This document shows positions 8,980-36,325 of a stretch of 38,689 nt of DNA, piece by piece (positions within the stretch are counted from its first letter, which is position 1; the number at the start of each line of letters is the position of its first letter). Origin of the DNA: a virus; the IMG/VR virus record IMGVR_UViG_3300035698_027676, positions 1 through 38,689 of that record. One strand, 5' to 3'. The notes below the pieces were generated by a model. It did no database searches. It had not been told where the DNA came from and worked only from the letters and a program-made list of their open reading frames with translations. The position numbers and the translations under genes were made by a program.

Positions 8980-10002
8980 TTATTTAGAATTTTCTGCCGC
9001 TATCAAACAACCACGCGCCACTGAATACAGAGGATCTTTAGGACGAATAATTTTACCAACATTTATTGGCAAATCTGCCTTTGACACAATTTCTTGGAAA
9101 AGTTCTGGAAATCCCTTGGGGGAACTAGTTCCACCAGATACAACGATATCAATTGGGTGATCTAATCGAGCTTTTTTACCAGCATCCTTTAATCCTTTTT
9201 TTATTCCTGAAACTGTTTTTTGAATCATGATTTCATATTGGGCTTTAATAGCTCTTTGAACAAGTTCTGTGGGATTCTCTACGGTTAAATCTGTTTTGAG
9301 CTTTTCTTTATTCACATAAGTGGTGGTTTCTTCGCCACACGCTCTAGTTGCCTGTTTGTCTATCCAATCTCCGCTGTTAATCAAAGAAAATTGAAATACA
9401 GGGGCTCCAAAAACAGCAAAGCAAATATTGACCATACCCGCTCCGAAACTTATCCCCAGACCCGTCCATGATTTTTCTGCCAATTCCGCATAAACCAAAG
9501 CTAACCCTTCGTTAATTGGATAAATTTCCAATCCCAAAGAATTTCCATCTTCATCTTCTGCTGAACTAAAGATGGCGTGGAGAACTTTTCCATGATAATC
9601 AGCGTCAGTTTCTTCATTGATCGCGTTGGCAGGAACACTATAAAAAATAGTATCTTTTGGTTGTGCTCCTTCAATTAAACTGTGAACCATAATACTCATA
9701 ATTTCTTGAGCATGTCGTTCTTTGGGGTTTAAACAACCATCTTTCATTGGTCTGTGGAGTTCTATCTGTGTCATTGTGTAAGCCATATCAACAGCAGCTT
9801 CTCCCAAAGCATAAGCCACATCTTGATCTTCGGACTCCACAAGAGGAACTCCTGCTTTATTCATCATGTTGAATACAAACCTATTGTTGTCAAGAGGCAT
9901 TTCTAAGAAAGCATTGACTTCTCGTTTATAAGTAATTTTTCCTTCTTCGTTGCGCTTAGCAGAAACTAAATTATATGTCCCAGCATCGAACCCGTAACTC
10001 AT
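8980..10002 (-). CDS. Actin-like ATPase (ParM/MreB/Hsp70 superfamily)
   Basis: 340 aa, the normal size for a bacterial actin homologue. All superfamily landmarks are visible in order: phosphate-1 loop (GFDAGTYNLV, residues 4-13, Asp6), connect-1 (NEGLALVYAEL, 164-174), phosphate-2 (GISFGAGMVN, 183-192), adenosine motif (VVSGGTSSPKGF, 287-298) and connect-2 (SVARGCLIAAE, 327-337). Such proteins bind ATP and many form filaments that move or position DNA. Divergence is too great for me to assign ParM, AlfA or MamK type. Strong Shine-Dalgarno AAGGAG. Fifteen bases upstream lies a 72-aa gene in the same operon, the position where plasmid actin systems carry their partner. Confidence 0.8.
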   Translation of the reverse strand: MSYGFDAGTYNLVSAKRNEEGKITYKREVNAFLEMPLDNNRFVFNMMNKAGVPLVESEDQDVAYALGEAAVDMAYTMTQIELHRPMKDGCLNPKERHAQEIMSIMVHSLIEGAQPKDTIFYSVPANAINEETDADYHGKVLHAIFSSAEDEDGNSLGLEIYPINEGLALVYAELAEKSWTGLGISFGAGMVNICFAVFGAPVFQFSLINSGDWIDKQATRACGEETTTYVNKEKLKTDLTVENPTELVQRAIKAQYEIMIQKTVSGIKKGLKDAGKKARLDHPIDIVVSGGTSSPKGFPELFQEIVSKADLPINVGKIIRPKDPLYSVARGCLIAAENSK

Positions 10003-10334: not shown

Positions 10335-11111
10335 ATGGTTCATATTACACTTCAATCAGTGCAAAAACATTTAGAATCTTTTGGTTGTAATCTTTTAGAG
10401 GAAACATATATCAATAGTAGTACGCCACTTAAATATTGTTGTAATTGCGGGCGCATTACAACGGCAACATGGAACAATCTTTCAAGAAGAAAACCAGGAT
10501 GGAAATGCAAGAAGATTCACCGATTAGATATTGATTTTATTCGTTCTGAATTCACTAAACGTAATTGCAAGTTGTTGGAAGATAAATATGTGTATTCCGA
10601 TGTACCAATGAAATATATTTGTTCTTGCGGCAATTCCCACCAAATGAGTTGGGATAATTTTAAGCAAAACCACAAATGTAACAAATGTGGTTACGATGAA
10701 ATACGTGGATCAAATAACCATTTGTGGAATCCCAACCGACAAGCAGTCTTATTGAATGAGAAAATTAGGAAAAAATACTATCACATGCTTAGACAGACTT
10801 TACGTGCTGCGGGAACAAAAAAGGATAAAAAGAGTTTAGAAATTTTGGGGTATACTTCCAATCAACTCTTGGAACATTTAATGAAACATCCTGATTGGGT
10901 TGTATTAAAGAATAAAAATTGGCAATTAGATCACATTTTTCCTATCAAGGCTTTCGTTGATTATGGTATTTTTGATATTCAATTGATTAACGGACTAGAC
11001 AATCTTCGTCCCTCAGCAACGAAAAATAATTTATCTAAAGGTGGTTCTTATAATCCAAAAGAATTTGAAATATGGTTGACAACTAAAGGACATGTAATGG
11101 CCAACGATTAA
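10335..11111 (+). CDS. HNH homing endonuclease with two zinc-ribbon repeats
   Basis: 258 aa from ATG 10335, which has AAAGGA upstream; an ORF extension to 10257 would lie before the promoter. Residues about 6-60 and 66-118 are two copies of one module carrying cysteine pairs (KYCCNCGR; KYICSCGN, then HKCNKCG), probably zinc-binding DNA-recognition units. The nuclease domain follows: Asp199-His200 (WQLDHIFPIKAF), Asn223 (LDNLRP) and Asn231-Asn232 (TKNNLSKGG) of the HNH/treble-clef fold. It is a free-standing, presumably mobile endonuclease gene, inserted between a divergent operon and a convergent glycosyltransferase it overlaps by 29 bases. Confidence 0.87.
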   Translation: MVHITLQSVQKHLESFGCNLLEETYINSSTPLKYCCNCGRITTATWNNLSRRKPGWKCKKIHRLDIDFIRSEFTKRNCKLLEDKYVYSDVPMKYICSCGNSHQMSWDNFKQNHKCNKCGYDEIRGSNNHLWNPNRQAVLLNEKIRKKYYHMLRQTLRAAGTKKDKKSLEILGYTSNQLLEHLMKHPDWVVLKNKNWQLDHIFPIKAFVDYGIFDIQLINGLDNLRPSATKNNLSKGGSYNPKEFEIWLTTKGHVMAND

Positions 11112-12027
11112 ACATTTTTTTTAATCCATCAATAAGATGATCTGATGTTATCTCCGTAAGACATGGTTTTGGTATTTGATTAGTTTTATGGCAATTTGGC
11201 CAATTATAACATGGCCCACACCATCCTGGATGAGTATCACGGTGAATTTGAACAATTTCAGATTTGTAATATTTTGAATATACATATCCATCAGCAAACG
11301 AGAATATTCCAGTTAATGGCTTTTTGCCTCCTCCCGCGTAATGAAACGCCGCACTATCCACTGCGACTACATAATCCGCCGCATCCAAAGCTCCCATCCA
11401 CTCTTTAATAGAAAGTCCAGACCATACAGGGGCATTTAATTCTGGAATAGGTTTATTGTGTAAACCAAATACATAGCATCCCTGATCTTTCAGGAAGCTC
11501 ACTACGGAGTTTTGTTGTTCAGTAGTAAGATTCTTGGTAATCATTGCAGAAATGGGACAGAGAGCCACTGTGGGGACTGTATGGGGTAATTTAGCCCTAG
11601 CTTCCGCTTCATATTTAGGATCTAATTTAAAATGCATATTGTGCTTTGTTAACTCCACCCCACAGTGATTCGCCCAAATATCAGCCCGATGTTTTTGGGA
11701 AAATGGAGCCATTGCCATTTCGTGTCGATTACAAGCACTTGTTGTTACATAAAACACTATGTAATCTTGGGTGTTTGTTTTACGACAATCTAAAATTTTA
11801 TCTAAAAATGGATGATCTTCAACAGCTTCATGATATTTGGCAGGGCAAGAGAAATGTAACTCTAATTCGGGATTTAGAAGTTTAAAATCCTCGAATAACA
11901 TACGATGCATTAAAATATCTCCCAAACCACCAGTTTCGCGCATTACAAGAACTTTATTGTGTTTTTCGTGGAATTCACGTAATGAAAAAGAACGGGCTCT
12001 TGGTTTGGGGACTTTTAATCTGGGCAT
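11083..12027 (-). CDS. Glycosyltransferase family 9 (heptosyltransferase-like)
   Basis: 314 aa. The N-terminal Rossmann domain begins VLVMRETGGLGDILMHR (27-42), the GT9 start with its G-x-G-D motif. The C-terminal nucleotide-sugar domain has VAVDSAAFHYAGGGKKPLTG (221-240), the family's D-[TS]-[AG]-x-x-H-x-A segment. A late cysteine cluster (Cys270, Cys273, Cys279, Cys289) could bind a metal. GT9 enzymes transfer heptose or other sugars from nucleotide donors; here it may glycosylate a virion protein or alter host surface sugars. It lies just downstream of a terminator, so it needs its own promoter, which I could not identify. No Shine-Dalgarno is obvious. Confidence 0.82.
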   Translation of the reverse strand: MPRLKVPKPRARSFSLREFHEKHNKVLVMRETGGLGDILMHRMLFEDFKLLNPELELHFSCPAKYHEAVEDHPFLDKILDCRKTNTQDYIVFYVTTSACNRHEMAMAPFSQKHRADIWANHCGVELTKHNMHFKLDPKYEAEARAKLPHTVPTVALCPISAMITKNLTTEQQNSVVSFLKDQGCYVFGLHNKPIPELNAPVWSGLSIKEWMGALDAADYVVAVDSAAFHYAGGGKKPLTGIFSFADGYVYSKYYKSEIVQIHRDTHPGWCGPCYNWPNCHKTNQIPKPCLTEITSDHLIDGLKKMFNRWPLHVL

Positions 12028-14283: not shown

Positions 14284-15132
14284 CTATTCCTCTAAGAAAA
14301 AATCTGTAATGTTTTCCAACGATATATAGTTGGCATGTTCCAGCTTTATTCCTTTGGAACAATTTCCTATTTTAACTCCTTGTGTTTTAAGCCAATATAG
14401 ACATGCATCAATAACATGTTGAGACATGATTTGTTGAGGATAAGTCCACAAACCATTGTCTAAATTTTCGGCTGTAGCTCTTTCTTCTTTAAAACTATCA
14501 TCACAACAAAAAAGGAGTAATTTTTGGACTCCTAAAGTGTATGCCAAGTGAATTGCTGCACAAATCGGATTTCTATAATCATCTAAAATTGTTTCAGCTT
14601 TAATTTGTGGCGAATACTTTTGATCTAAAGTCGGTGTATAAAAAAAGAGTGATCCATCATAATTTCTTGTAAATAATGGATTAGTTCTGGTGGATGCCAC
14701 ACAATCAGGAAAGTATCGGTGTTTTTTGGGTAAGTATCTAGCACATTCTTCAAAAGGATTATTAGCTACATAAAAAGATATAGCTCTCTTTTTGGATGCT
14801 TTCTCTCCCACCATTTTCCATTTTGCCAAAGTTCCATTTGTACTAATAATTTTTACATCTTTGTATGAAAATTCTGCTAATTTTTCTTGTTGTTCTTCAA
14901 AATCATAACCATCCGAAACAATAATTAAATTTGGGTAAATTATATTTCTTTCTTCTAATGTCGAATTAATTTTGTGAACATTAGACAATTCATTTTTCAA
15001 AAAAAGCCTTATATCTCGTTCATTACAAAGATTATTGATGTCAATTTTAGGGGTTCTTTGGGTAAAGTCGCGCACCCACATACCTTCTTCTGTCAGAAGA
15101 TAATTGTTGTCGTATTTCTTTTTAATTCTCAT
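14284..15132 (-). CDS. DUF115/MAF-like putative glycosyltransferase
   Basis: 282 aa. Residues 188-212 (NPICAAIHLAYTLGVQKLLL, then FCCDDSF) match the family pattern of an Asn-containing loop, a helix, and a strand ending in Asp. A late GIKLEHANYISLENI (261-275) resembles the C-terminal segment of DUF115 / MptE-like / motility-accessory-factor proteins. Some of these transfer nonulosonic acid or related sugars to flagellin Ser/Thr. Family assignment is by eye. The start ATG (15132-15130) overlaps the stop of the repeat-fibre gene as ATGA, so translation is coupled to that fibre. That makes the fibre the obvious candidate substrate. Confidence 0.55.
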   Translation of the reverse strand: MRIKKKYDNNYLLTEEGMWVRDFTQRTPKIDINNLCNERDIRLFLKNELSNVHKINSTLEERNIIYPNLIIVSDGYDFEEQQEKLAEFSYKDVKIISTNGTLAKWKMVGEKASKKRAISFYVANNPFEECARYLPKKHRYFPDCVASTRTNPLFTRNYDGSLFFYTPTLDQKYSPQIKAETILDDYRNPICAAIHLAYTLGVQKLLLFCCDDSFKEERATAENLDNGLWTYPQQIMSQHVIDACLYWLKTQGVKIGNCSKGIKLEHANYISLENITDFFLEE

Positions 15133-17609
15133 TTGTTTGGATTACAAGGAACCAAGGCAAAGCATGGTTGTTCGCCTTCTTCGCCGCCAATTAAATTAGA
15201 GGTGTTGAATTGGACCGGTACTGGTCCACCTTTGTAAACGAGTGGTATCTCTAAATTTTCTGGCACTTCTAAACGAGCAATTATTTGAGAGGGCATCTTG
15301 ACTTCGATAGAATCTGGCATTCCTCGAACTTCTATAAAATCAGGTATTCCAGAAGCATCCAATTTTATTTGAGTAGGGAAGTTTTCGGGAGTCAAAAGAC
15401 GAATTACATCTGGCACATTTGATTCTAATTTTATGGATTTGGGTAAATCTTGTGCTATAAGTTCAATATGTTGTGGAATTTCCTCGCTAGTTATTTTTAT
15501 ACTTCTGGGCAGTGGTGGTCCGCTCCATTCCATTTTAATATTGGGTATCTCAGGAACTTCTAAAGAAATACTTTGAGGCACATCGTGTCGAACATTAATG
15601 TCTGGAATTGTCGGTGCTACGATTTTAATTTCAGAAGGTATTCCAAGACTTTTTGCCTTAAAATTTAATGGAGGGGGTTTAAATGCGTCTTTTTGAAGAG
15701 AAGAACCTTCATCAATTAATTTTTTAGTTGTTGCTCTAGAAGCAGCACTAGTATTAAAAAGTGCTGCTGGTTCCGTACAAGAAACATCTACTGAAATAGA
15801 GCAATCACAACTTATAGTTGGTACTTCGCCCCATGAAACAGTAATTTCAGGAGTGGAATCAAATACCACTTGAATTTCATCTGGAAGGCTATCTGTTAAA
15901 GTTACGGTGATGTCTTGAAGACTATCTGTTAAAGTTACATCAATGGTGGTCGGTATATTGTCTATTACATTAATGGTGGTTGGTATATTGTCTATTACAT
16001 TAATGGTGGTTGGTATATTATCTGTTACAGTAATGGTATCTGGCACATCATCTGTTACAGTGATATCGTATTCCAGACTATCCAATACGTTAATCTCGTA
16101 TTCTAGACTATCTACTACAGTAATTTCTGATGGAATGTCATCTATAACAGTAATAAATGAAGGAACATCAATTGTAGCTGTAAATGACATTTCTGAAGGA
16201 AATTCGGCAATCAGTCTTATTTCTGAAGGTATATCTCCAACAATATTGATTACAGAAGGTATGTCGCAGCCTGTAAGTTCAATTGTTGATGGTATACTAT
16301 CAAGAACTATAATTGTTGATGGTATATCCGTACCAATAATAGAAATGGTGTCCGGAATTATCAAAGAAATCGTGGTTGGAATTTCTGCTATCAAAGAAAT
16401 CGTGGATGGAATATCCACTATTACAGAAATAGTAGATGGAATATCATCAATTACAATAATTGTGCTTGGAATATCTAAACTATCCCAAATAATGATGCTT
16501 GTCGGAAAACTGTCAAAGACAATAATTGTGCTGGGAATATCATCAATTACAATAATTGTGCTGGGAATATCATCAATTACAATAATTGTGCTGGGAATAC
16601 TATCAATTAAGATGATTGTGCTGGGAAGATTTGGCATATCTAGTGTAATTACACTTGGAATATTAATATCTATAGTCGGAATGATAATTGATGGTATGTT
16701 AATGTCTGGTATGTTAATGTTTGGAATGTCCAAACATGGAAAAACAATTTGAGGAAGTTCTAACGTTGGAACGGGAATGTCGATATCAGGAACTACTATT
16801 TCAGGTATTTCTATTTCAGGAATAGGAATGCTAAAAGTTTCCTCTTCTTCTTCTGTTGTTGGCTCTACTAAAGGAATTCTGTCAGAGGGAGTTTGTATGA
16901 CTGTGCATACTTCACTAGTAACTGTAATTATTGGATCAACAATAGAATTGGCTGGATAAGTATGGGTTCCAGACAATTCTGAGTTTGTAGAAGTTCCATC
17001 TCCAAATTCTATTTTAAAATTAGTGTACTGACCTATAAGCGTCACAGAATATTCAGCAAGTGTGTCGTAACAACTAGTGGGATTGTCCTGTATTTGAAAA
17101 TCAAAATTAACAGTTACACAATATGCATCATCAATACAGGTTGGTTCATCAACTAATCTGCTAATTTTATCGTCAATATCTAAAATAAAAAGTTCTGTGG
17201 CTTGAATAGCATAAGCTATTTGATTGTGATGTTCTGCTACAACAAATCCTCTAACCCAAGTCCCTCGCCGTCCTTCGGGATCACCAGGGATGGGTTCTGT
17301 GGATGCTAAGTTAAACTGAGTTTGATCTCCACCTATGTTTCTGGCACACCTTGTGAATTTATAAATTTTTCCATTAGCATTTTTTTCTACTGAATCATAG
17401 TAAAAAAGTTCTCCATTGATGCTGCTAAATCCATTTTCAGGCCAGATTTCTAATTCGTTAACTCCAACAGGTATAATTTCAATTTCTTCTGCCCAAGCAG
17501 GATTATTTTGCGCAAGTCGAGCCTCACTGGTACTAAAGACCAGATATAATGTTCTGTTAGAGTCTATTGCTTTTGGATAGACAGGTTGCGGTGGAAAACC
17601 AACGGCCAT
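15129..17609 (-). CDS. Fibre protein with PKD domain and long 10-residue IPSTI-type repeat shaft
   Basis: 826 aa. Residues 10-140 are the N-terminal domain shared with the next two fibre genes, ending in VVAEHHNQIAYAI. Residues 165-235 are a PKD-like Ig fold (EFGDGTSTNSELSGTHTYP). Residues 255-600 consist of about 30 ten-residue repeats, consensus D-I-P-S-T-I-x-V-I-D, with Pro at a fixed position and alternating hydrophobic residues. Residues 650-790 hold a second diverged set (IPxxIKL). The C-terminus has paired cysteines (Cys816, Cys822). The repeats probably form a beta-type shaft (solenoid or intertwined trimer). It is probably a receptor-binding or spacer fibre. Shine-Dalgarno AGGAGG. 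Confidence 0.78.
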   Translation of the reverse strand: MAVGFPPQPVYPKAIDSNRTLYLVFSTSEARLAQNNPAWAEEIEIIPVGVNELEIWPENGFSSINGELFYYDSVEKNANGKIYKFTRCARNIGGDQTQFNLASTEPIPGDPEGRRGTWVRGFVVAEHHNQIAYAIQATELFILDIDDKISRLVDEPTCIDDAYCVTVNFDFQIQDNPTSCYDTLAEYSVTLIGQYTNFKIEFGDGTSTNSELSGTHTYPANSIVDPIITVTSEVCTVIQTPSDRIPLVEPTTEEEEETFSIPIPEIEIPEIVVPDIDIPVPTLELPQIVFPCLDIPNINIPDINIPSIIIPTIDINIPSVITLDMPNLPSTIILIDSIPSTIIVIDDIPSTIIVIDDIPSTIIVFDSFPTSIIIWDSLDIPSTIIVIDDIPSTISVIVDIPSTISLIAEIPTTISLIIPDTISIIGTDIPSTIIVLDSIPSTIELTGCDIPSVINIVGDIPSEIRLIAEFPSEMSFTATIDVPSFITVIDDIPSEITVVDSLEYEINVLDSLEYDITVTDDVPDTITVTDNIPTTINVIDNIPTTINVIDNIPTTIDVTLTDSLQDITVTLTDSLPDEIQVVFDSTPEITVSWGEVPTISCDCSISVDVSCTEPAALFNTSAASRATTKKLIDEGSSLQKDAFKPPPLNFKAKSLGIPSEIKIVAPTIPDINVRHDVPQSISLEVPEIPNIKMEWSGPPLPRSIKITSEEIPQHIELIAQDLPKSIKLESNVPDVIRLLTPENFPTQIKLDASGIPDFIEVRGMPDSIEVKMPSQIIARLEVPENLEIPLVYKGGPVPVQFNTSNLIGGEEGEQPCFALVPCNPNK
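15240..15644 (-). repeat. Second, diverged repeat block of the fibre
   Basis: Encodes about a dozen 10- to 14-residue units of the form [IV]P-x-x-I-[KE]-[LV], for example IPSEIKIV, LPKSIKLE, FPTQIKLD, MPDSIEVK. They are more charged than the first block and not similar enough in DNA to be recent duplicates. Confidence 0.7.
15810..16847 (-). repeat. In-frame 30-bp tandem repeats of the fibre shaft
   Basis: Roughly 30-bp units encode IPSTIIVIDD-like decapeptides. Near-identical copies occur about 16515-16610 (unit with TCATCAATTACAATAATTGT) and about 15945-16030 (unit with TCTATTACATTAATGGTGGT), which shows recent local duplication. Others have diverged at DNA level but keep the Pro and hydrophobic pattern. 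Confidence 0.9.
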
Positions 17610-24643: not shown

Positions 24644-25120
24644 TTAGATAAACGAGATTCTCCAAGTCCATGTTATTTGCATTTGTGCTGTCTTGCTAAA
24701 GCCTGCAAAAGTAATCATGCTATACAGTGTGCGAGGATCTGTATTCATTTCCAAACCCATTTCATTAATAGTGTGTCCCACAGCCTCATCACGAGCAACT
24801 ACTGACGTGAAAATTACCTGTGTCAAATCGTTGGGGTCCAATGTGCTAATAAGAGGCTTTCTTAAGATAGTAGTCCCAAAAAGACCACCTCTATCTTCAC
24901 TAATGAATTTAGGAACGCCACCTGAAGTTCCACCATCTCCAAATGCCATACGACTAATGAAATAGTCATAATTACTACCATATTGATTAGCTAAACTAGC
25001 AGCTAAGGCTTTTCTTCCATCTCGTAAGACTGTATTGTGAAAAAGGGTTTTTTCAATCCTGCCATCGTCCCATTCAATAATTCTTTCTACTTCGCCTTTA
25101 CAATGAACTTTTTCTATCAT
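24644..25120 (-). CDS. Virion/tail-associated protein, 158 aa
   Basis: Contains YFISRMAFGDGGTSGGVPKF (53-72) and VGHTINEMGLEMNT (113-126), then a closing beta segment MQITWTWRISFI. This G-D-G-G-T ... I-N-E-[MI]-G-L layout recurs in small phage tail and fibre-associated proteins near baseplate genes. Start overlaps the stop of the gpI-like gene (ATGA, 25117-25120) with the Shine-Dalgarno GAGGGA inside it. Likely a tail-tip or fibre-base component; the exact role is unknown. Confidence 0.65.
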   Translation of the reverse strand: MIEKVHCKGEVERIIEWDDGRIEKTLFHNTVLRDGRKALAASLANQYGSNYDYFISRMAFGDGGTSGGVPKFISEDRGGLFGTTILRKPLISTLDPNDLTQVIFTSVVARDEAVGHTINEMGLEMNTDPRTLYSMITFAGFSKTAQMQITWTWRISFI

Positions 25121-28100
25121 ACTTCTCCCTCTTCAACAGAATCATCTTCATATTTAATATTGTATGAAACCGATTCTGTTTGTGTTGTTGTATCTAAAAT
25201 ACCATCGTCTTGTTCCTTGGTATTTAAGATGTGATAAGCAAAAGATGTTCCATAAGTTACTTCACTTTCCACTATAGATGCTCCTCTTCGATCAATTAAA
25301 TCAAAATCATGGCCAGGAATCTCTGGATCTATGCGCTCTGGAATATTTGGTCCAAGTTTTTCAAAACGAATTATGTCGAAAGTTACCGATGTAGTAGATG
25401 TCACCTTCCAATCTTCATGCGGACCTAAAAGAGTAATTTCAGTTCCATCTATTTCACTCATAGAATAATAATTTGTAGAACTCGATGGTGTAGTTATTCT
25501 TATAAGATAATTTTCTTTAAATCTCCATTGAGCTTCTGTTTTATCTATTCCAATTGGAGGGTTTACTCCATTTTGAATGTCTAAATTAGCCTCATAATCA
25601 ATTATCGTTGTTAATTTAAGACCACGATAACCAAATTGAGCAACGGCGTTGTCAACTAAACGACGATACATCACAACAGATACCCCCACTACAGTTCCCG
25701 CTGTATAATTGTCTATGTAAAATTGATGAGTGTCACCATCCACAAATCCAATTACTTCATATTGAGATCCATTGTAAAGGGTATAATCTCTAATTTTAAT
25801 GAAGTTTTGTATGTTTTCGATACTAGTAGCGGAACTTCCAGGTTTAAAGTCTACAAGACCGCGACGACGAACAGAAAGAGCACCACTCGTGCCTGTGGCA
25901 CGAGTGGTGCTTGTTTCATCTTGTAGCAGCCAAGTTAAATCGGTTGTATCTGTTGTGGGTAAAGTTCCATCATCTTCCAAAACCAAAACACCATCAGGAA
26001 GAATGTCTTTTACATCATAAGCACCGCCACCAGAAGTGGAGAGTAAAACAGTCCAGGGATTGCCTGTTTGATATCCATCATCAATATCACGTTGACTTTT
26101 AACCCCTAATTCAATGAGAGCAGTTGTATTTCCATCACTAAAAGTGAACAAATCATCTTGTGTGATGTTAATTGGATTTCCACTAATGATTCGATTTGAC
26201 AATCTAAAAGTAAATTGTGTTTGATTCACTGGTTCAGAAAAAGCGGGATTTGCCGCAACAACATCTGCCATATATCCTGCGGGATTTTCTATCGAATAAT
26301 CCCCTGCTAGGGTATGTGGAGCTATAATTTCCAACCAGTTAGAATTATTTGCAGGAGCACCTCCTACGCTACTGGTATTTACTCCAAATCTTTCAAAGTC
26401 AAAATGATCTCCCTGGACATCATCTCCTGATCCTGGAGATAAAATCACTACAGATTCATTTGCAGACTCTCCAGCTATAGATGTGTAAACAACGGTGGAA
26501 TTCGCCAGCATATTTCTTTTAAGAAGTGAAAGAGCGTCTTGATGAGGTACTACTCTATTGAATATATTTTGAGCCTCACCAGCGATTACTACCTCTTCGC
26601 CAAACATATGGACAAGCATTACTACATCTTCTACTGGTGATGGAACAAATTCATTTACAGCACCGCCAAATGTAATAGAATGCAATAAGGCATGAAACGG
26701 TATGAATTCAGACAGGATGTTAGTTACTTCAATCATCCTATCATTAGCAAGTTCTTCTATTTCTACTTCTAGGTTGTACTTACTTCCCAAACAATGTCTG
26801 CAAGGGTCGATAAAGCCTTTGTCAATATTACAAGGATCTCCAGATTCTCTAGTTGAGTTGTGTGAAACTAAACCAGAGGTTAAATAAGATCTGGTATCAT
26901 CAACATTAACTGGATCAAAAACTTCATGTTTACCCCCGTCTGATATCAATCTAACTCGATCAAAAAACCACCCTTCAGCAAAATATTGTTTCAAAAATTG
27001 CAATTCTTTGCAATTTTCACCAAATTCTAATGCTTTAAAAAGAATGAATTCAACACAATTATCTGGTATGGTTGTGAGATATCCTTGCTTAATTCTAGTA
27101 ATCATTGTAAGTATGCGTTTTTCCTCACGACTTCTATCAATCGGTTTTGCATTACTCTTTCTATTTTTTCTAGGAAAAATTGCACGAACAATGTCACACG
27201 CATACGGAATAACCGTTTTATCATTTATATTTTGTTTTAAATTTTCATTTACAAGCCGTTGTTTTCGTTCTAAATTAAAACCAATCTTAGAAACAAACTT
27301 TGAAATTGAATCTTTTCCAATAACTCTGGTGCGCCAGTAAGTTCGTAATTCATCTTTATATCTAACTTTGTAATTGGTAACAGTAGAAAGAATGCCCAAC
27401 TGCAACAAAAGCATTTGAACTTCTTCACATAATGTGTGCCATTTTGAAGTAAATAATACAGATTTTTTCTGCACTCCACCATCTGTATCAAATAGCCCAC
27501 GAATAAAAGCACAAATTTGTGTTTCGCCACTACTCCATAATTGAACTGGAATATGTTGTTTCCAACAACCTTTTGGTTGAAAATTAGGCAAAACGTTTCC
27601 TAATTCTTTCGCTTGAATTCGAGATGTGCCAATTCTCCACATTGTTTCATTACACTTCATTGAAACATATAATTGATGTTTCTCTGGAGTGATTTTATAA
27701 ACATTAAATTTAGCTTGTTTGCTTGACAAGTAGTTTTCATACCAAACTTTTGTTGTGGATTCGGTTTCGGGTATTAGCAAATTAAAACGGCGTCGTCTAT
27801 CAATTGTTCCATCACCATAAATTAATCCGGCTGCGTACCATGTGTTAGTATCGCATCCTAAAGACGCGGATAAATTAGAATTGCCTCGCTTGCCAAGTAT
27901 AAAATCTCCAGTTTTGAGTTGGTCAGCACTTACCCAAATAAGGTTGCCATTTATACTCATTACCCTAAATTCATGATTCGGAGTAACGGTCAATCTACGA
28001 CCCATTGAAGTGTCAATTTTAAGTGTTTTTCTAATACCATGACTTACTACTGTTTCACACTCTCGAAATCCATATTCTGTCAGTAATTTTAATGACTTGC

Positions 28101-29715
28101 CAATTTGATCCCCAATACAAGCAACTTCGTCGCAAGTTGTTATCATAGTTGAACTTACAACGCAGCCATTATATTCTTCCATATTATAGATATTTTCTGA
28201 ATAGGGGAATTCTGTTCTAACCCATCCAAAAATCAGTGGATCATGTAAAGGATGTCTATTGGGAATTACCAAATCAAACATCGAATCATCTTCTTCAATT
28301 ACCCTTACATTCCAATTCTTCGGAGGATAACTTTGACTTCTCTCATCACGTTGATCTTCTAAATCAAGGGATCGTATATATTCTTCTATGATTTGTTGGG
28401 CAGCAAGAGTTATCTCATTGACTTTATAAATAACTCGAATTGATTCCCCTTCTTCTAAAATGATAGAATTAACAGACAATTGATCTCCTATCCAAGTTAA
28501 TGTAGATTGAGAACCAACTGTTGCTATTGTGATGTAATCAGAAGAAAGCTCCACCCATTCAGAAGTTGCGCTATTGTTGCGGTAATATACTTCTGTATTA
28601 TTAACATCTAATGTCAATGCGGTTTTAGCAAGCGAAAACGTAGTTTGTCCATCTTCTTCTACATCGAACATTTCTTGCCAAGTATACATGGAAATAACTT
28701 GCCATAAACGTATAAATTTTTCAAGACTCATACCTGCTTGAGATAGAGCCATTTGTAAACCTTTTCGTGTTCCCTTTTTTTTGTACAAGGGGACGGCTTC
28801 TTTAATTTGTCTTCGCCAAAGTGTAGGATCAATAGATCTAAGTCTAAGATTGAATAGGTTTCCTAGCAATTGCAACATGTTTTCTGGAACAACATTGGCA
28901 TCTATGACTCCCAAAAGTTGATTTGCTTGGTCTTCAAGAAACGTAAATCCTTTGGCTATAGCCATGTTGAATCCAGTCATTACTTCTGGCGTTAGATCGG
29001 CATCGCTAAATTTTTGATCTTTAAAGGTAGAAGGGAGATATCTTTGAACTAAAGTCTCATATTTATCTGGATCAGTAAATTGCGTTGGCAAACTCGTTGT
29101 TAGTTTGGTGTCTGTAAAAAGAGAAAAACTATTGTAATTGCTAATAGAGTCGCCTGCCGCAATTGGAAACCACTCCCAGCAAATAAAATAATCACCCTCA
29201 CGTTGAGATAAAGGCTCCCAGTATAAAATAAATTTTCCAGGAATTACTTCTTCATCTTCATCTTCGGCTGGAACAAGTATGTTGTTTGCAATAGTATCTA
29301 ATTCTTCTGTGGGTGGGACTTGATCTGGATCAAGCCAAGCTGGATATTCTTCGCTCAAAGCATCTGCGTGTCCAAAAACTTCAACAGGCAAAGCTCGTTT
29401 GTAATAAACACTATCTAATCTTTTGCTTTGATCTATTTTATTTTCAGCTAATACAACCGCATCTAAATTAGCTTGTGTAGGACTAGCACATAATGCTTCT
29501 TGAGCGTCTTCTAAATCTGTCACATAGTCAGGTTCAATCGTCTCCTTTTCATATTCTGTGTAATTTTTCCCAGAAAATCCCTTCTCCAAAAAATATATCT
29601 TAACAGTTGAGATTTTATATGGCGTAGACACACAATCATTTGCATCCGTAGTAGTTATTTCAAACTGAACGGTGTCTGTGATTTTAGGAGTTTCGTATAT
29701 TGTTTTGATAACCAT
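25117..29715 (-). CDS. gpI-like phage tail protein precursor with intein
   Basis: 1532 aa before splicing, 1096 after. Residues about 215-345 match the phage tail protein I domain (YLPSTFKDQKFSDADLTPEV; WRRQIKEAVPLYKKKGTRKG). Residues 518-953 are an intein. The C-extein starts STRESGDPCNIDKG with a Cys-rich patch and continues with a helical segment (NILSEFIPFHALLHSITFGG) and a long beta-rich region that may bind fibres. It follows the gp6/J-like gene, exactly where gpI lies in P2-like phages, so it should sit at the baseplate periphery. Much longer than P2 gpI. Confidence 0.82.
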   Translation of the reverse strand: MVIKTIYETPKITDTVQFEITTTDANDCVSTPYKISTVKIYFLEKGFSGKNYTEYEKETIEPDYVTDLEDAQEALCASPTQANLDAVVLAENKIDQSKRLDSVYYKRALPVEVFGHADALSEEYPAWLDPDQVPPTEELDTIANNILVPAEDEDEEVIPGKFILYWEPLSQREGDYFICWEWFPIAAGDSISNYNSFSLFTDTKLTTSLPTQFTDPDKYETLVQRYLPSTFKDQKFSDADLTPEVMTGFNMAIAKGFTFLEDQANQLLGVIDANVVPENMLQLLGNLFNLRLRSIDPTLWRRQIKEAVPLYKKKGTRKGLQMALSQAGMSLEKFIRLWQVISMYTWQEMFDVEEDGQTTFSLAKTALTLDVNNTEVYYRNNSATSEWVELSSDYITIATVGSQSTLTWIGDQLSVNSIILEEGESIRVIYKVNEITLAAQQIIEEYIRSLDLEDQRDERSQSYPPKNWNVRVIEEDDSMFDLVIPNRHPLHDPLIFGWVRTEFPYSENIYNMEEYNGCVVSSTMITTCDEVACIGDQIGKSLKLLTEYGFRECETVVSHGIRKTLKIDTSMGRRLTVTPNHEFRVMSINGNLIWVSADQLKTGDFILGKRGNSNLSASLGCDTNTWYAAGLIYGDGTIDRRRRFNLLIPETESTTKVWYENYLSSKQAKFNVYKITPEKHQLYVSMKCNETMWRIGTSRIQAKELGNVLPNFQPKGCWKQHIPVQLWSSGETQICAFIRGLFDTDGGVQKKSVLFTSKWHTLCEEVQMLLLQLGILSTVTNYKVRYKDELRTYWRTRVIGKDSISKFVSKIGFNLERKQRLVNENLKQNINDKTVIPYACDIVRAIFPRKNRKSNAKPIDRSREEKRILTMITRIKQGYLTTIPDNCVEFILFKALEFGENCKELQFLKQYFAEGWFFDRVRLISDGGKHEVFDPVNVDDTRSYLTSGLVSHNSTRESGDPCNIDKGFIDPCRHCLGSKYNLEVEIEELANDRMIEVTNILSEFIPFHALLHSITFGGAVNEFVPSPVEDVVMLVHMFGEEVVIAGEAQNIFNRVVPHQDALSLLKRNMLANSTVVYTSIAGESANESVVILSPGSGDDVQGDHFDFERFGVNTSSVGGAPANNSNWLEIIAPHTLAGDYSIENPAGYMADVVAANPAFSEPVNQTQFTFRLSNRIISGNPINITQDDLFTFSDGNTTALIELGVKSQRDIDDGYQTGNPWTVLLSTSGGGAYDVKDILPDGVLVLEDDGTLPTTDTTDLTWLLQDETSTTRATGTSGALSVRRRGLVDFKPGSSATSIENIQNFIKIRDYTLYNGSQYEVIGFVDGDTHQFYIDNYTAGTVVGVSVVMYRRLVDNAVAQFGYRGLKLTTIIDYEANLDIQNGVNPPIGIDKTEAQWRFKENYLIRITTPSSSTNYYSMSEIDGTEITLLGPHEDWKVTSTTSVTFDIIRFEKLGPNIPERIDPEIPGHDFDLIDRRGASIVESEVTYGTSFAYHILNTKEQDDGILDTTTQTESVSYNIKYEDDSVEEGEV
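26857..28164 (-). mobile_element. Intein with LAGLIDADG homing endonuclease
   Basis: 436 residues, Cys518 to Asn953 of the precursor. Splicing block A is CVVSSTMITTCDEV, block B is LTVTPNHEF (T-x-N-H), blocks F/G are DDTRSYLTSGLVSHN followed by Ser954. Thus Cys1, penultimate His, terminal Asn and a +1 Ser are all present and splicing should work. The endonuclease has both dodecapeptide motifs, AGLIYGDG (Asp635) and RGLFDTDG (Asp745), with catalytic acids intact. It would excise itself from the tail protein and spread to intein-free alleles. Confidence 0.93.
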
Positions 29716-29718
29716 TTT

Positions 29719-31287
29719 TTACTCATACAGGAATGAAATTTCAACAGTGTCCGGTCTAATTACTTCATAATATTCAGCCGTAACTACTGTGCCCGAATTA
29801 TCGGCATCATTTGTTACAAATGACACTTCGTATGTATTTACCCTTTCTATACTAGATAAAGATTTTATAAGAGCAGCACTTGTGAGATCTTGTCCATAAT
29901 CCCAATTATTGAGATCAAAGAAAGAATCTATTGCATTCTCAACAGCGGTTCTTACTTCTTGTTCAAATTTTCTTTGTAGGCGACTCACCACAGCCTCCAC
30001 AGACACATCTACTTCTAGTGCAGTGCCGTCTTTAATGCACACATAATCCGTAATCATTTTTTTATCTTCTAATTCTTCATATAATGCAGATTTTAACTCA
30101 TCAGAAGCCTCTATTAAATTACCATCATTTTTTGCTAAAACATAAAGATCTACTACGTTTGCAGAACAACCTTGATTTCTTAAAACGGCCGTGGCTTTTC
30201 CAACTTGACCATGATAAGGTGTAGTAAAAATATCTGCTAAAGATTTGTAATCCAATCCAGTTACCGCCCTGTCTTGTGTTCTAACCCATATTGGTAATTT
30301 TCGTCTTACATCTTCAATGGTGTCGCCATCATAACCATATTGTCCCGGTGTATAATTGCGAAATTCTACCGGAACACTGTATTCTAATCCAGAAACTACA
30401 GCTTGTCGTTGAGTGTTAAGAAACCCAGTTACAATATTTCCTCTTGTTCCTCCCCCAATCCTATAAATAATTTCTATATTTGAGCCTTGTGAGGGACTTA
30501 AACCACGAGAGTTATTTCCAAATAAGATATACGCTCTATAAAGAGAATCATATTCAACGCGAAATTCTTTTCTTGGTTGCGAATCTGTAAAATAATCTAC
30601 CCTTTCCCAAATAGATCCATCTACTGACACCGTGACAGAATTTTGTATTACAGAAGATTCTGTTGTAGCATACGTCTGTAGAGGTTCTCCCGTTCCTCGA
30701 TAATTAATAGTTGTTGTTGTTCCCTCCAAACCTATTATATTATCAATCACTAAAGTATTGGCAGGAATGGTTATGTCTTCATCATAAATTGGATTAAAAT
30801 CACCATCAGCAGGAAAAAGTTCTATTTGTGCCGGACCATCTTCAGCCACAAATGCCACATTCACAGGTGTATTAACTACTACATCTTGAGAATAAGCACT
30901 TGTTAATGTGGCGGTCCATTTAGATCGAGAAGGTAATGGGGGAGTTGGGTTAAACCCAATTAAACGAGCCAAACGAAAAGCATTGTCTGCTTCTGTAACT
31001 GTATCAATAAAAAATTCATTTGCCAGTTGATCCATTTTAAACGAAAGAGTGTCAGCTAAAAAAGCCCAATTTTCAATCAGCATAATAGCCAAAGAAGATT
31101 CAACCAAATCATTAAATGTATTTGGCAAAACAGTTCCATTATCGCCAAAGCGCTCATTTAAAAACTCCACCAATCTGGTCTTCATAGACCAAAAATCTTG
31201 GTTCGTGTAATTAAAATTAATAATTTGTTTGGTTAAAATAGATTCGTTTTGAGAAAAGGGTGTAACATTTGTTGGGCATGTAGCCAT
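29719..31287 (-). CDS. Baseplate wedge protein, gp6/gpJ family
   Basis: 522 aa from ATG 31287, which has GGAGG seven bases upstream; a TTG extension to 31302 would run through that site. The N-terminus is helical (DLVESSLAIMLIENWAFLAD), followed by beta-rich Baseplate_J-type domains (RAYILFGNNSRGLSPSQGSN, then EIIYRIGGGTRGNI) and a C-terminal domain with YKSLADIFTTPYHGQVGKA and LEVDVSVEAVVSRLQRKFEQ. The J family forms the iris-like ring of baseplate wedges that triggers sheath contraction. Flanked by gp25 and gpI homologues in the canonical order. Confidence 0.85.
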   Translation of the reverse strand: MATCPTNVTPFSQNESILTKQIINFNYTNQDFWSMKTRLVEFLNERFGDNGTVLPNTFNDLVESSLAIMLIENWAFLADTLSFKMDQLANEFFIDTVTEADNAFRLARLIGFNPTPPLPSRSKWTATLTSAYSQDVVVNTPVNVAFVAEDGPAQIELFPADGDFNPIYDEDITIPANTLVIDNIIGLEGTTTTINYRGTGEPLQTYATTESSVIQNSVTVSVDGSIWERVDYFTDSQPRKEFRVEYDSLYRAYILFGNNSRGLSPSQGSNIEIIYRIGGGTRGNIVTGFLNTQRQAVVSGLEYSVPVEFRNYTPGQYGYDGDTIEDVRRKLPIWVRTQDRAVTGLDYKSLADIFTTPYHGQVGKATAVLRNQGCSANVVDLYVLAKNDGNLIEASDELKSALYEELEDKKMITDYVCIKDGTALEVDVSVEAVVSRLQRKFEQEVRTAVENAIDSFFDLNNWDYGQDLTSAALIKSLSSIERVNTYEVSFVTNDADNSGTVVTAEYYEVIRPDTVEISFLYE

Positions 31288-31291
31288 ATTA

Positions 31292-31720
31292 TTATCCTCC
31301 AAGAGGCATTTCTAATCTTAATTCATTTATTTCTGATATATTCTCAAATTCGGAAAACTCTATACTTATCAAGAGTATATGTCCTATTTCTTCTAGTGTA
31401 TCGTCTGAACTTAGTGCATTTTCTACTTCAACACTATTGGCACTTACCGAAATATTTATATTTTTAACAACTATACGAGGTTCCCACATCGTAATTGATT
31501 TTATAATCATTTCTCTAGCTTGTGAAATTATTTGAGAATCATTTGGTTCAAACAACAGTTTGTTTAATGGAGTGCCAAAAGATGCCAACATTACGCGTTC
31601 ACCAGGATTAGTTAGTAATAATGACAACAAATCACCTTTCACCACATCAACTCCTTCTTTTGTGTGTAAAAGTCCTCTTGGGTTTTTTGTTATTGGATAT
31701 GGCGCTCCTAAAAGTTTCAT
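31292..31720 (-). CDS. Baseplate wedge protein gp25-like
   Basis: 142 aa, normal size for the gp25/gpW family. Conserved features: GDLLSLLLTNPGERVMLASF (29-48), LNKLLFEP and the helix SQIISQAREMIIKSITMWEP leading to the R-I-V strand. The N-P-G-E-R-[VI] motif is the family hallmark. gp25 is the first sheath-contacting wedge component. Shine-Dalgarno AAGGAG. Its stop codon sits inside the Shine-Dalgarno spacer of the next gene. Confidence 0.9.
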   Translation of the reverse strand: MKLLGAPYPITKNPRGLLHTKEGVDVVKGDLLSLLLTNPGERVMLASFGTPLNKLLFEPNDSQIISQAREMIIKSITMWEPRIVVKNINISVSANSVEVENALSSDDTLEEIGHILLISIEFSEFENISEINELRLEMPLGG

Positions 31721-31734
31721 ATATTCTCCTTAGC

Positions 31735-33771
31735 TTAGCTACAATTCAGTGGTGGACAACTAGTTCCTGCAAGAATATGCCAAATATTAATACATGGTGC
31801 TGTACAAGAGGCTGATGCATAAACTCGGTCACTAGCCACAAGGCGATTGCCTTGAAGAACAACCACAGGCCAAATACATGGACCCTTTTCATCACTATCT
31901 GGCATTGGACAATCTTTTCCGGCAAGAAGGTAAATATTTCGATCTGCAAGAAATATATGTTGATCTGCAAGGTTAATATATGTCTCGCATGATTTATGTA
32001 GTGTGTGTTGACTTACTACAATAATTTTATTTCTTGGACCCAAACATCCACCTTGACAAAAATCAGACATTTCATCATTTGCCAAACTTGGTCTAGAATA
32101 ATCATCACTTCCAGATTCATTTCCGTGACCAACAATAGTTACATGATGTCCTTCTGTAGAACAAACATAATCACCACCCGCCCTTACAAAAATTTGACCA
32201 CCATTTGGACTTTCTTGCATTCGAATGATATGAGGACCACAACAAGCAGTATATTGAGGGGCAAAAAGTTGAATTGCTTGTTTTTGGGTTTCTTGTTCTT
32301 GTGTATTATAATCTTCCATTCTAAGCATTAAACCATACCCAGATCGCAATTGAACATAAGCATTTTTAGCCGTTGGGCTTATCATGCCGCCTTCTTGACG
32401 CCCCTTGCATTGTTTATTATCCACATCCGCCAAATCAAAAGTGTGATTGCTTGTGCTTTGCATGTGAATTCCGCGTTTTTCCCCTGCTTGGGGTTCCCCC
32501 CCTGGTTCAGTAGGACATGATACGGTGTGGTCATTGAGTTCTATTTTGTTTCCGCTAGCCGATAGTATTTCTATTCGATTAGTTTCATCTCTAACATTTT
32601 TTTCTTTTTCAAAATCATCCATTCTGATCTGGTGACCAGTTGCAGAAACCCATTCAGTGTATCCTTCAAATTTATCCGTACAACCAAAATCAAATGAATT
32701 TAAACCTCGTTCCCAATTGGGCACTCCTTGTGGTTCTTCTACATTGTCATTCATGACAATTGTATGTCCGCTTGGAGAGATTAGTTGGGCTCCACTTTGT
32801 TCTAATTCTATTTTGTTGTTTTGTGGTGTTCCTACGCCTTGGTATGGTTTCTGTTCGCTTACATGTTTGTGGTAGGGATTAGCAAACACGCTTTGGTCGC
32901 CATCGGGAGGACAAGCGGCTTTTTCAAGAGGGTTGCCCTCTTCATCATTACACAAACTCACATCATTTCCTTGCAACCACTGTCCAGAGGGATGAAGGTG
33001 GTCGTCCTTAAAAAGAAGCAAACCCCCGGCAGCACTTTTAAGTTCAATCCTTGTCCATCTATGGTTGCATTTGTAGTTTCCATCTACCATCGTAAGAGAA
33101 TGTTTTTGAGGAGTTTTAAATCCATACATATTTGCATATGTTATTTTGGTTTTTGCTTCAGTGTCTTCTTCGAAATCTTTCATCGAGTCTACGTCAAGAC
33201 CATTGTAATTTTCCGTATTCCAAGGAGGAAATACTTGCGAACCATCATTTGGGCCAACCAAGTAACCTTTTCGATGCCCTTCGTGAGCATCTGCATACTC
33301 TGGAATACCTCGTCCCCATTTATGTTGTCCATCTGGACCCCTGTCTCTATCCCAAGTGGTTCCCAAGTAAAAAGCAGAATATCTATGCCCCCCTTCAAAT
33401 ATTAAACACAACTTAGATCCTGCTGGGGGAACCCATGTTAATCCACAATCATCAAATCCACCCATACTAGAAATTGGATATGCCCATGGCAATTGATCTA
33501 TAGTTACCTGTATAGGATCGCTCATAAGCGGACTGTAATATTTAACTCGTCCTTGTTTGAGAGGATCGTCTGTTGCTATACATATCGCCGTATGCATGCC
33601 TACATAAGTTTTTTCTTGAGCAGGTTGTGTAAATTTTGTTTTAACTTCTGTTTGTACTAATGTTTTATTGACATATCCTAACTCAGAAAATTTTTCTTCC
33701 ATTTTAAAAATGCGATTGTGCAATTCTTCTATGGATTCTGGCATATTCATTGACTTTAAATCTCTTTCCAT
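31735..33771 (-). CDS. gp5/VgrG-like baseplate spike, no lysozyme domain
   Basis: 678 aa. A helical N-terminus, then an OB-fold at about 58-150 (QGRVKYYSPLMSDPIQVTID; GLTWVPPAGSKLCLIFEGG; YLGTTW), the classic gp5/VgrG core. The remainder is beta-rich and shows several copies of the spike motif S-x-[ST]-G-x-x-I-x-[LM]-[ND]-D (LISPSGHTIVMND, VSATGHQIRMDD, LSASGNKIELND), typical of the triple-stranded beta-helix. There is no lysozyme insert. It is unusually rich in cysteine, especially the end (CTAPCINIWHILAGTSCPPL), suggesting metal binding near the tip. Shine-Dalgarno GAGGAA. Confidence 0.82.
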   Translation of the reverse strand: MERDLKSMNMPESIEELHNRIFKMEEKFSELGYVNKTLVQTEVKTKFTQPAQEKTYVGMHTAICIATDDPLKQGRVKYYSPLMSDPIQVTIDQLPWAYPISSMGGFDDCGLTWVPPAGSKLCLIFEGGHRYSAFYLGTTWDRDRGPDGQHKWGRGIPEYADAHEGHRKGYLVGPNDGSQVFPPWNTENYNGLDVDSMKDFEEDTEAKTKITYANMYGFKTPQKHSLTMVDGNYKCNHRWTRIELKSAAGGLLLFKDDHLHPSGQWLQGNDVSLCNDEEGNPLEKAACPPDGDQSVFANPYHKHVSEQKPYQGVGTPQNNKIELEQSGAQLISPSGHTIVMNDNVEEPQGVPNWERGLNSFDFGCTDKFEGYTEWVSATGHQIRMDDFEKEKNVRDETNRIEILSASGNKIELNDHTVSCPTEPGGEPQAGEKRGIHMQSTSNHTFDLADVDNKQCKGRQEGGMISPTAKNAYVQLRSGYGLMLRMEDYNTQEQETQKQAIQLFAPQYTACCGPHIIRMQESPNGGQIFVRAGGDYVCSTEGHHVTIVGHGNESGSDDYSRPSLANDEMSDFCQGGCLGPRNKIIVVSQHTLHKSCETYINLADQHIFLADRNIYLLAGKDCPMPDSDEKGPCIWPVVVLQGNRLVASDRVYASASCTAPCINIWHILAGTSCPPLNCS

Positions 33772-36274: not shown

Positions 36275-36325
36275 AAGTGTTATACGGTTTCCGTATTAGC
36301 AAGTGTTATACGGTTCCTGTATTAA
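36275..36325. repeat. 26-bp tandem duplication at the tape-measure 3' end
   Basis: AAGTGTTATACGGTTTCCGT (36275 onward) recurs as AAGTGTTATACGGTTCCTGT (36301 onward), 26 bases apart. One copy contains the last codons and stop of the tape measure gene, the other lies in the short gap after it. The copy at 36275 holds a perfect inverted repeat ATACGG-TTT-CCGTAT. There is no T-run, so it is not a typical terminator. Confidence 0.75.

Follow-up and report, generated by a model that had tools for sequence, protein, structure and literature searches.

A candidate baseplate-anchored fibre of uncultured huge phages with a decapeptide-repeat shaft of variable length

What does a protein build when it repeats a short, proline-containing unit some 25 times, and does that repeat belong to any fibre shaft already described? 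We addressed these questions for one gene of a complete 38.7-kb IMG/VR virus record (the window, 38,689 nt in all). The sequence-only reading had placed a fibre gene at 15129–17609, with about 30 decapeptides at residues 255–600 and a strict proline every 10 residues. The coordinates hold, with the gene on the minus strand, and the repeat is real: in residues 253–600 autocorrelation gives a self-identity of 42% at a lag of 10 residues, falling to 25% at 20 and 21% at 30, against a highest value at any lag of 0.194 in 500 composition-preserving shuffles of the same residues. The extent and regularity needed correction, as the array comprises about 25 units over a shorter stretch (Table 1). It is separate from a preceding five-residue array, which reads PEIEI PEIVV PDIDI ... 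PNINI PDINI PSIII. The decapeptide consensus is P-S-T-I-x-V-x-D-x-I. When the 25 units were phased by hand, Pro was found at position 1 in 22 (those at 503, 513 and 565 have none), Ile at position 4 in 23, and V, L, I or F at position 6 in 24. Position 5 is polar or Ile, positions 8–9 are Asp, Ser or Asn, Asp being the commonest, and position 10 is mostly Ile. Units are mostly spaced by 10 residues, with spacings of 8, 11 or 12 in some, and weaker units of the same pattern carry on at residues 658–783, within the C-terminal part. In the window protein, lag 10 exceeds lag 20, with no super-period of two units, and lag 30 has no excess over lag 20, so that nothing points to three units per turn.

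The array also repeats at the DNA level, as had been claimed. Two pairs of adjacent 30-nt units (339/349 and 533/543) are identical, unit 381 differs from units 339/349 by one base, and Tandem Repeats Finder independently reported 30-bp arrays at 15935–16061 and 16359–16627. Recent duplication has occurred within the array.

Table 1. Features of the fibre gene and its neighbours in the window
Feature	Position	Strand	Basis or remark
gpV-type OB protein	31735–33771	minus	upstream of fibre gene
gpJ	29719–31302	minus	upstream of fibre gene
gpI-like tail protein	25117–29715	minus	upstream of fibre gene
PKD351, upstream neighbour, 351 aa	19945–21000	minus	adaptor-type N-terminal domain and two PKD domains
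PKD772, upstream neighbour, 772 aa	17627–19945	minus	adaptor-type N-terminal domain and PKD domains
Fibre gene, 826 aa	17609→15129	minus	ATG at 17609, stop ends at 15129
N-terminal adaptor domain (residues 1–155)	17145–17609	minus	hhalign to N-termini of both upstream proteins
PKD domain (residues 162–243)	16881–17126	minus	AlphaFold pLDDT ~80; structure comparison
Five-residue P-x-h-x-h array (residues 259–317)	16659–16835	minus	direct reading; Pro spacing 5
Decapeptide array, ~25 units (residues 329–586)	15852–16625	minus	autocorrelation and shuffles, unit table, 30-bp tandem arrays, predicted strands
Conserved C-terminal region (residues 591–826)	15129–15839	minus	found in every complete orthologue
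Downstream 282-aa gene	14284–15132	minus	overlaps fibre gene by 4 nt; MptE/sialyltransferase-like

Genes for baseplate proteins of the gpV, gpJ and gpI types are followed, in this order, by genes for a 222-aa protein (gp222), PKD351, PKD772, the fibre and the 282-aa protein, whose MptE/sialyltransferase-like matches are all sub-threshold. All related loci, within the limits of their sequence, have the genes in the order gp222, PKD351, PKD772, fibre, 282-aa, 97-aa and 112-aa, and wherever a locus extends this far, the 282-aa gene adjoins the fibre gene. Several other features of these loci were recorded. The gpI-like protein holds an intein with a LAGLIDADG domain, and its orthologue in locus L005, only 621 aa long, is probably intein-free; in locus L001 (2792–3721) an ORF that by eye is homing-endonuclease-like lies between the two PKD genes. 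Near the fibre genes, the window encodes a glycosyltransferase family 9-like protein (11083–12027, minus strand) that is conserved in relatives. A 340-aa protein (8980–10002, minus strand) has an end-to-end match to Pfam Volactin (PF25216), at E 2.5e-69. Volactin is an actin-like protein described from Haloferax (PMC10869688), and the homologue is 57–68% identical across the huge-phage lineage where present and 31% identical in a second huge phage, LR745208. Close to the record end, a gene with a 246-bp tandem repeat (36306–38663, minus strand; 2.3 copies, 92% matches) encodes a candidate tape measure protein.

The array is preceded by two domains. The N-terminal adaptor domain ends in a long predicted helix (residues 121–152). 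When the first 165 residues of the fibre orthologues were compared by hhalign with those of PKD351 and PKD772, the probabilities were 99.1 (E 5.5e-19) for the former and 98.5 (E 2.8e-15) for the latter. A common N-terminal domain is thus present in all three proteins, though the likeness is weak by pairwise BLAST alone. The N-terminal domain of PKD351 also matches a 'virion structural protein' of Synechococcus phage S-RSM4 (SRSM4_151, E 1e-5; the match spans only ~75 residues), whose gene comes after g25 and g6 (gp25/gp6). The adaptor presumably attaches to the baseplate or to neighbouring fibre proteins. Behind it, residues 162–243, as modelled, superimpose on the collagenase PKD domain 4u6t (VIA-align Z 8.4, rmsd 2.3 Å, 73 residues), which confirms a PKD fold; Pfam PKD_4 matches 11 of 16 orthologues, weakly. 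Gene context, adaptor and PKD domain thus bear out the earlier view of a fibre, in the sense of a virion protein that resembles fibres and has a shaft of repeats, and a baseplate/fibre gene block together with an N-terminal domain common to virion proteins marks it, by sequence criteria, as a putative baseplate-anchored one.

The C-terminal region consists of a W-G motif, a Pro-poor linker (residues 600–655) and then degenerate P-x-x-I-x-L units. Its identity is 50%, versus 59% for the adaptor, between the window and L007, and 94% versus 91% between L002 and L004; between clades it falls faster in some pairs (30% versus 56% for the window and L001). Within clades the region is thus almost on a par with the adaptor in conservation, whereas receptor-binding tips are usually variable, and docking or capping is as likely a role as receptor binding. 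Two points speak against a side fibre: it has no recognizable receptor-binding head, and its C-terminal part is too conserved for a usual host-range tip.

Relatives of the fibre were sought in three collections. In tblastn searches of the phage collection, the sole relative was LR756511, an uncultured phage of 595 kb, whereas IMG/VR yielded 23 orthologous loci on contigs of up to 459 kb. A single match among bacterial genomes lies at a contig end in a Neisseriaceae MAG; it has the same PKD neighbours, from which we infer that the contig is probably a phage contig. Shaft length, taken from 40 residues past the FGDG motif to the W-G motif, was expressed in residues and not as unit counts, since FCEPPSF-type units escape automatic pattern counting. 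Shafts span 142–146 residues in six phages, 215, 223, ~273, 350 (window) and 381 in others, and 893, 907, 930, 998, 1038 and 1082 residues at the long end. This almost eight-fold range, from 142 to 1082 residues, lies between conserved ends, with N-terminal parts of 226–262 residues and C-terminal parts of 190–242 residues across complete orthologues (those of L009, L003, L021, L019 and L026 end at contig ends and are incomplete). Comparison among related phages therefore upholds the proposal that shaft length is evolving. The unit period is 10 or 11 in nearly all relatives, while the unit sequence differs by clade: IPSTIIVIDD (window), IPSIISLVGT (L007), IPTSIHINTPK (L013) and PPSFDCISFCQ (L005). 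Between L002 and L004 the ends are 91–94% identical and gapless; in the shaft, identity is 80% and four indels together account for 37 residues. In a tree built from PKD351 and PKD772, L005 (223 residues) falls within the clade of 893–1038 residues and L013 (1082) pairs with L007 (381) as its sister, placements that imply at least two gains or losses of long shafts. Judged from these sequences, the fibre belongs to a lineage of uncultured huge phages that keeps both ends and the gene order while shaft length varies.

Some orthologues depart further from the window protein. That of L019 (6001–13023) exceeds 2341 aa and has few units, followed by Pro-rich linkers and repeats that by eye are RCC1-/Kelch-propeller-like, before the contig end cuts it. 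One shaft, in L013 (6001–10650), holds several unlike arrays, of the IPTSIHINTPK, NPSLIVPPI, ECPTDCSVEL and PAWWDQVDFKG types. The fibre proteins of L002, L004, L022, L023 and L025 have ~90–110 cysteines each, arranged as FCEPPSFDCISFC units, and those of L002, L004 and L023 also have a super-repeat of 35 residues; disulphide or metal stapling of such a shaft is conceivable.

Consistent with the suggestion that the array belongs to no known shaft family, it had no confident match in Pfam (none even at E 10), in PDB sequences (none at E 1) or in PHROGs, where phrog_20597 at residues 482–510 is at chance level (E 0.2). Two other candidates were set aside: phrog_33360, 'tape measure' (E 2.5e-5), covers only the five-residue array (residues 260–321) and was taken as compositional, and PDB chain 9lc0 (E 0.024) gave a gapped, low-scoring alignment of I/V/N/T repeats. 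The array alone found nothing in the phage collection, where low-complexity filtering may mask matches, and in this it is unlike the adaptor, which is linked to SRSM4_151 through PKD351. No description of this decapeptide repeat was found among the abstracts, titles and text passages covered, most subscription papers lying outside them, and none of the papers covered mentions LR756511. These results mean absence from the collections searched and are not proof of a new fold.

Repeat spacing also sets the array apart from the shafts to which it is most readily compared. Triple beta-spiral repeats are ~15 residues long with two strands; here there is one strand per 10 residues, and the lag-15 identity of 0.135 equals background. 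Nor does the shaft contain any run of three G-x-x triplets as in collagen, in agreement with the earlier contention that it differs from both types. It nevertheless has in common with the adenovirus and reovirus triple beta-spiral, a trimeric shaft of variable repeat number, the hydrophobic alternation and a turn at Pro or Gly (PMC7565637 and general knowledge). The triple-stranded beta-helix of phage T4 gp5 is likewise built of a short repeat with interdigitated strands, its length tunable by repeat addition (PMC4576200). However, the gp5 repeat is VxGxxxxx, 8 residues with Gly, whereas the unit here has 10–11 residues with Pro; the shaft has only 4 Gly, residues 253–600 contain no VxG, and lag-8 identity is 0.10 versus 0.42 at lag 10. 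Repeats also allow length change by duplication in the shaft of the R-type pyocin fibre, another contractile-tail fibre (PMC6116203), but its helix-plus-turn motif is irregular and invisible in sequence, in contrast to the regular strand-and-turn unit predicted here. The decapeptide array may still work like an intertwined beta-shaft.

Structure prediction gave a regular but unconfident picture. With an alignment of 16 sequences (without L005), the AlphaFold model of the whole protein had a mean pLDDT of 45 (PKD ~80, array ~45, most of the C-terminal part ~30–35), and nearly all units contained one short strand, generally 5 residues long. The array folded alone with an in-phase alignment reached pLDDT 51 and pTM 0.38, with 14 strands at ~10-residue steps in a single-chain curved stack. 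Disorder without a regular strand pattern was thus not the outcome of prediction, one strand per unit being predicted in both runs. The hydrophobic positions 4, 6 and 10 and the mostly polar position 5 suggest one buried face per strand; for positions 4 and 6 the evidence is the window array, as the search pattern conditioned the orthologue profile on both. VIA-align placed the array model on leucine-rich-repeat arcs (Z 8–9.5, rmsd 4–5 Å, ~140 residues, a Z range common for this tool) and the whole model on CsgA (Z 7.9, rmsd 10.2). The leucine-rich-repeat matches were not read as homology, as they come from a model of pLDDT ~50. Foldseek searches of viral models found nothing below E 0.001 with either the whole-protein or the array model.

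Several arrangements could produce such a picture. In a monomeric or side-by-side beta-solenoid, each 20-residue coil would consist of two decapeptides, with the strands in two sheets that face each other, an arrangement known from curli CsgA and from rolls of the RTX type. The curved stack and its alignments would agree with this, and a core at positions 4, 6 and 10 would be compatible with two such sheets, but true single-chain solenoids usually score high pLDDT, and here the array never exceeded 70 even when folded alone with an in-phase alignment. Moreover, the Z values are unexceptional and the two-unit super-period is missing, and we consider a solenoid rather unlikely, though a serious rival to an intertwined trimer. 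Low pLDDT together with the fast indel change could indicate a flexible, largely disordered Pro-rich spacer whose role is length only. Such a spacer would hardly keep the strict hydrophobic positions 4 and 6 of the window array, a period of 10 or 11 in nearly all relatives, a regular strand in every predicted unit and a strongly hydrophobic composition unlike that of disordered linkers, and we regard it as improbable.

The number of chains and the place in the virion bear on two further alternatives. The shaft of Orsay virus CP-delta is a pentameric beta-bracelet, small barrels of strands from several chains joined by short loops, and its strands are 5 residues long (PMC7565637), as predicted for the fibre here. 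Its repeat, in an animal virus, is an 8-residue (L/V)x2Vx4V, in contrast to the period of 10–11 with hydrophobic 4, 6 and 10, and nothing in the fibre points to five-fold symmetry; a pentameric or other n-chain shaft of this kind thus seems very improbable. The protein could instead belong to another part of the virion, for example as a fibre of the head or collar, or as a strut at the baseplate periphery anchored by its two ends, both of which are conserved as if docked. Against this, the gene lies among those for the baseplate, and the adaptor has a link to a protein whose gene adjoins gp6/gp25, which leaves such a location unlikely.

The explanation that we favour, with moderate confidence, is a side fibre anchored to the baseplate of a huge contractile-tailed phage, with a decapeptide shaft of intertwined chains and, presumably, a role in adsorption. 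The N-terminal domain would attach the fibre either to the baseplate or to the two related PKD proteins encoded upstream, the PKD domain would be a rigid spacer, and the C-terminal region would cap the shaft or join a partner. Each unit would form a short beta-strand at positions 3–7, in which 4 and 6 point to the core and 5 to the solvent, followed by a turn whose signature is Asp/Ser at 8–9, the hydrophobic residue at 10 and Pro at 1. Wound round one axis, several chains, of which there are most likely three, would supply strands in turn, none folding alone. Strands that are regular but unconfident have their simplest reason in an obligate oligomer, which the shaft most likely is and which low monomer confidence fits, although low pLDDT is equally expected from partial disorder or a poor alignment. 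Since phage fibre shafts are usually trimeric, this would probably be an intertwined trimer. Duplication or loss of 30–33 bp would lengthen or shorten the fibre; because shaft units would be equivalent, its length could be adjusted without disturbing the ends. That these features amount to an undescribed shaft fold, in which intertwined chains each contribute one Pro-capped strand per 10–11 residues to a length-adjustable rod with two conserved ends throughout the lineage, is possible, though we put it forward tentatively.

Fibre shafts built of repeats are already known; this one has a unit absent from the family and structure collections searched. The unit could lend itself, as a simple module, to the construction of stiff protein rods, and the almost eight-fold natural length series between the same two end domains could be used to probe how fibre length acts in adsorption. 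The repeated rise or loss of long shafts, of 893–1038 residues in one clade and 1082 in another, indicates that in these huge phages fibre length is under active change.
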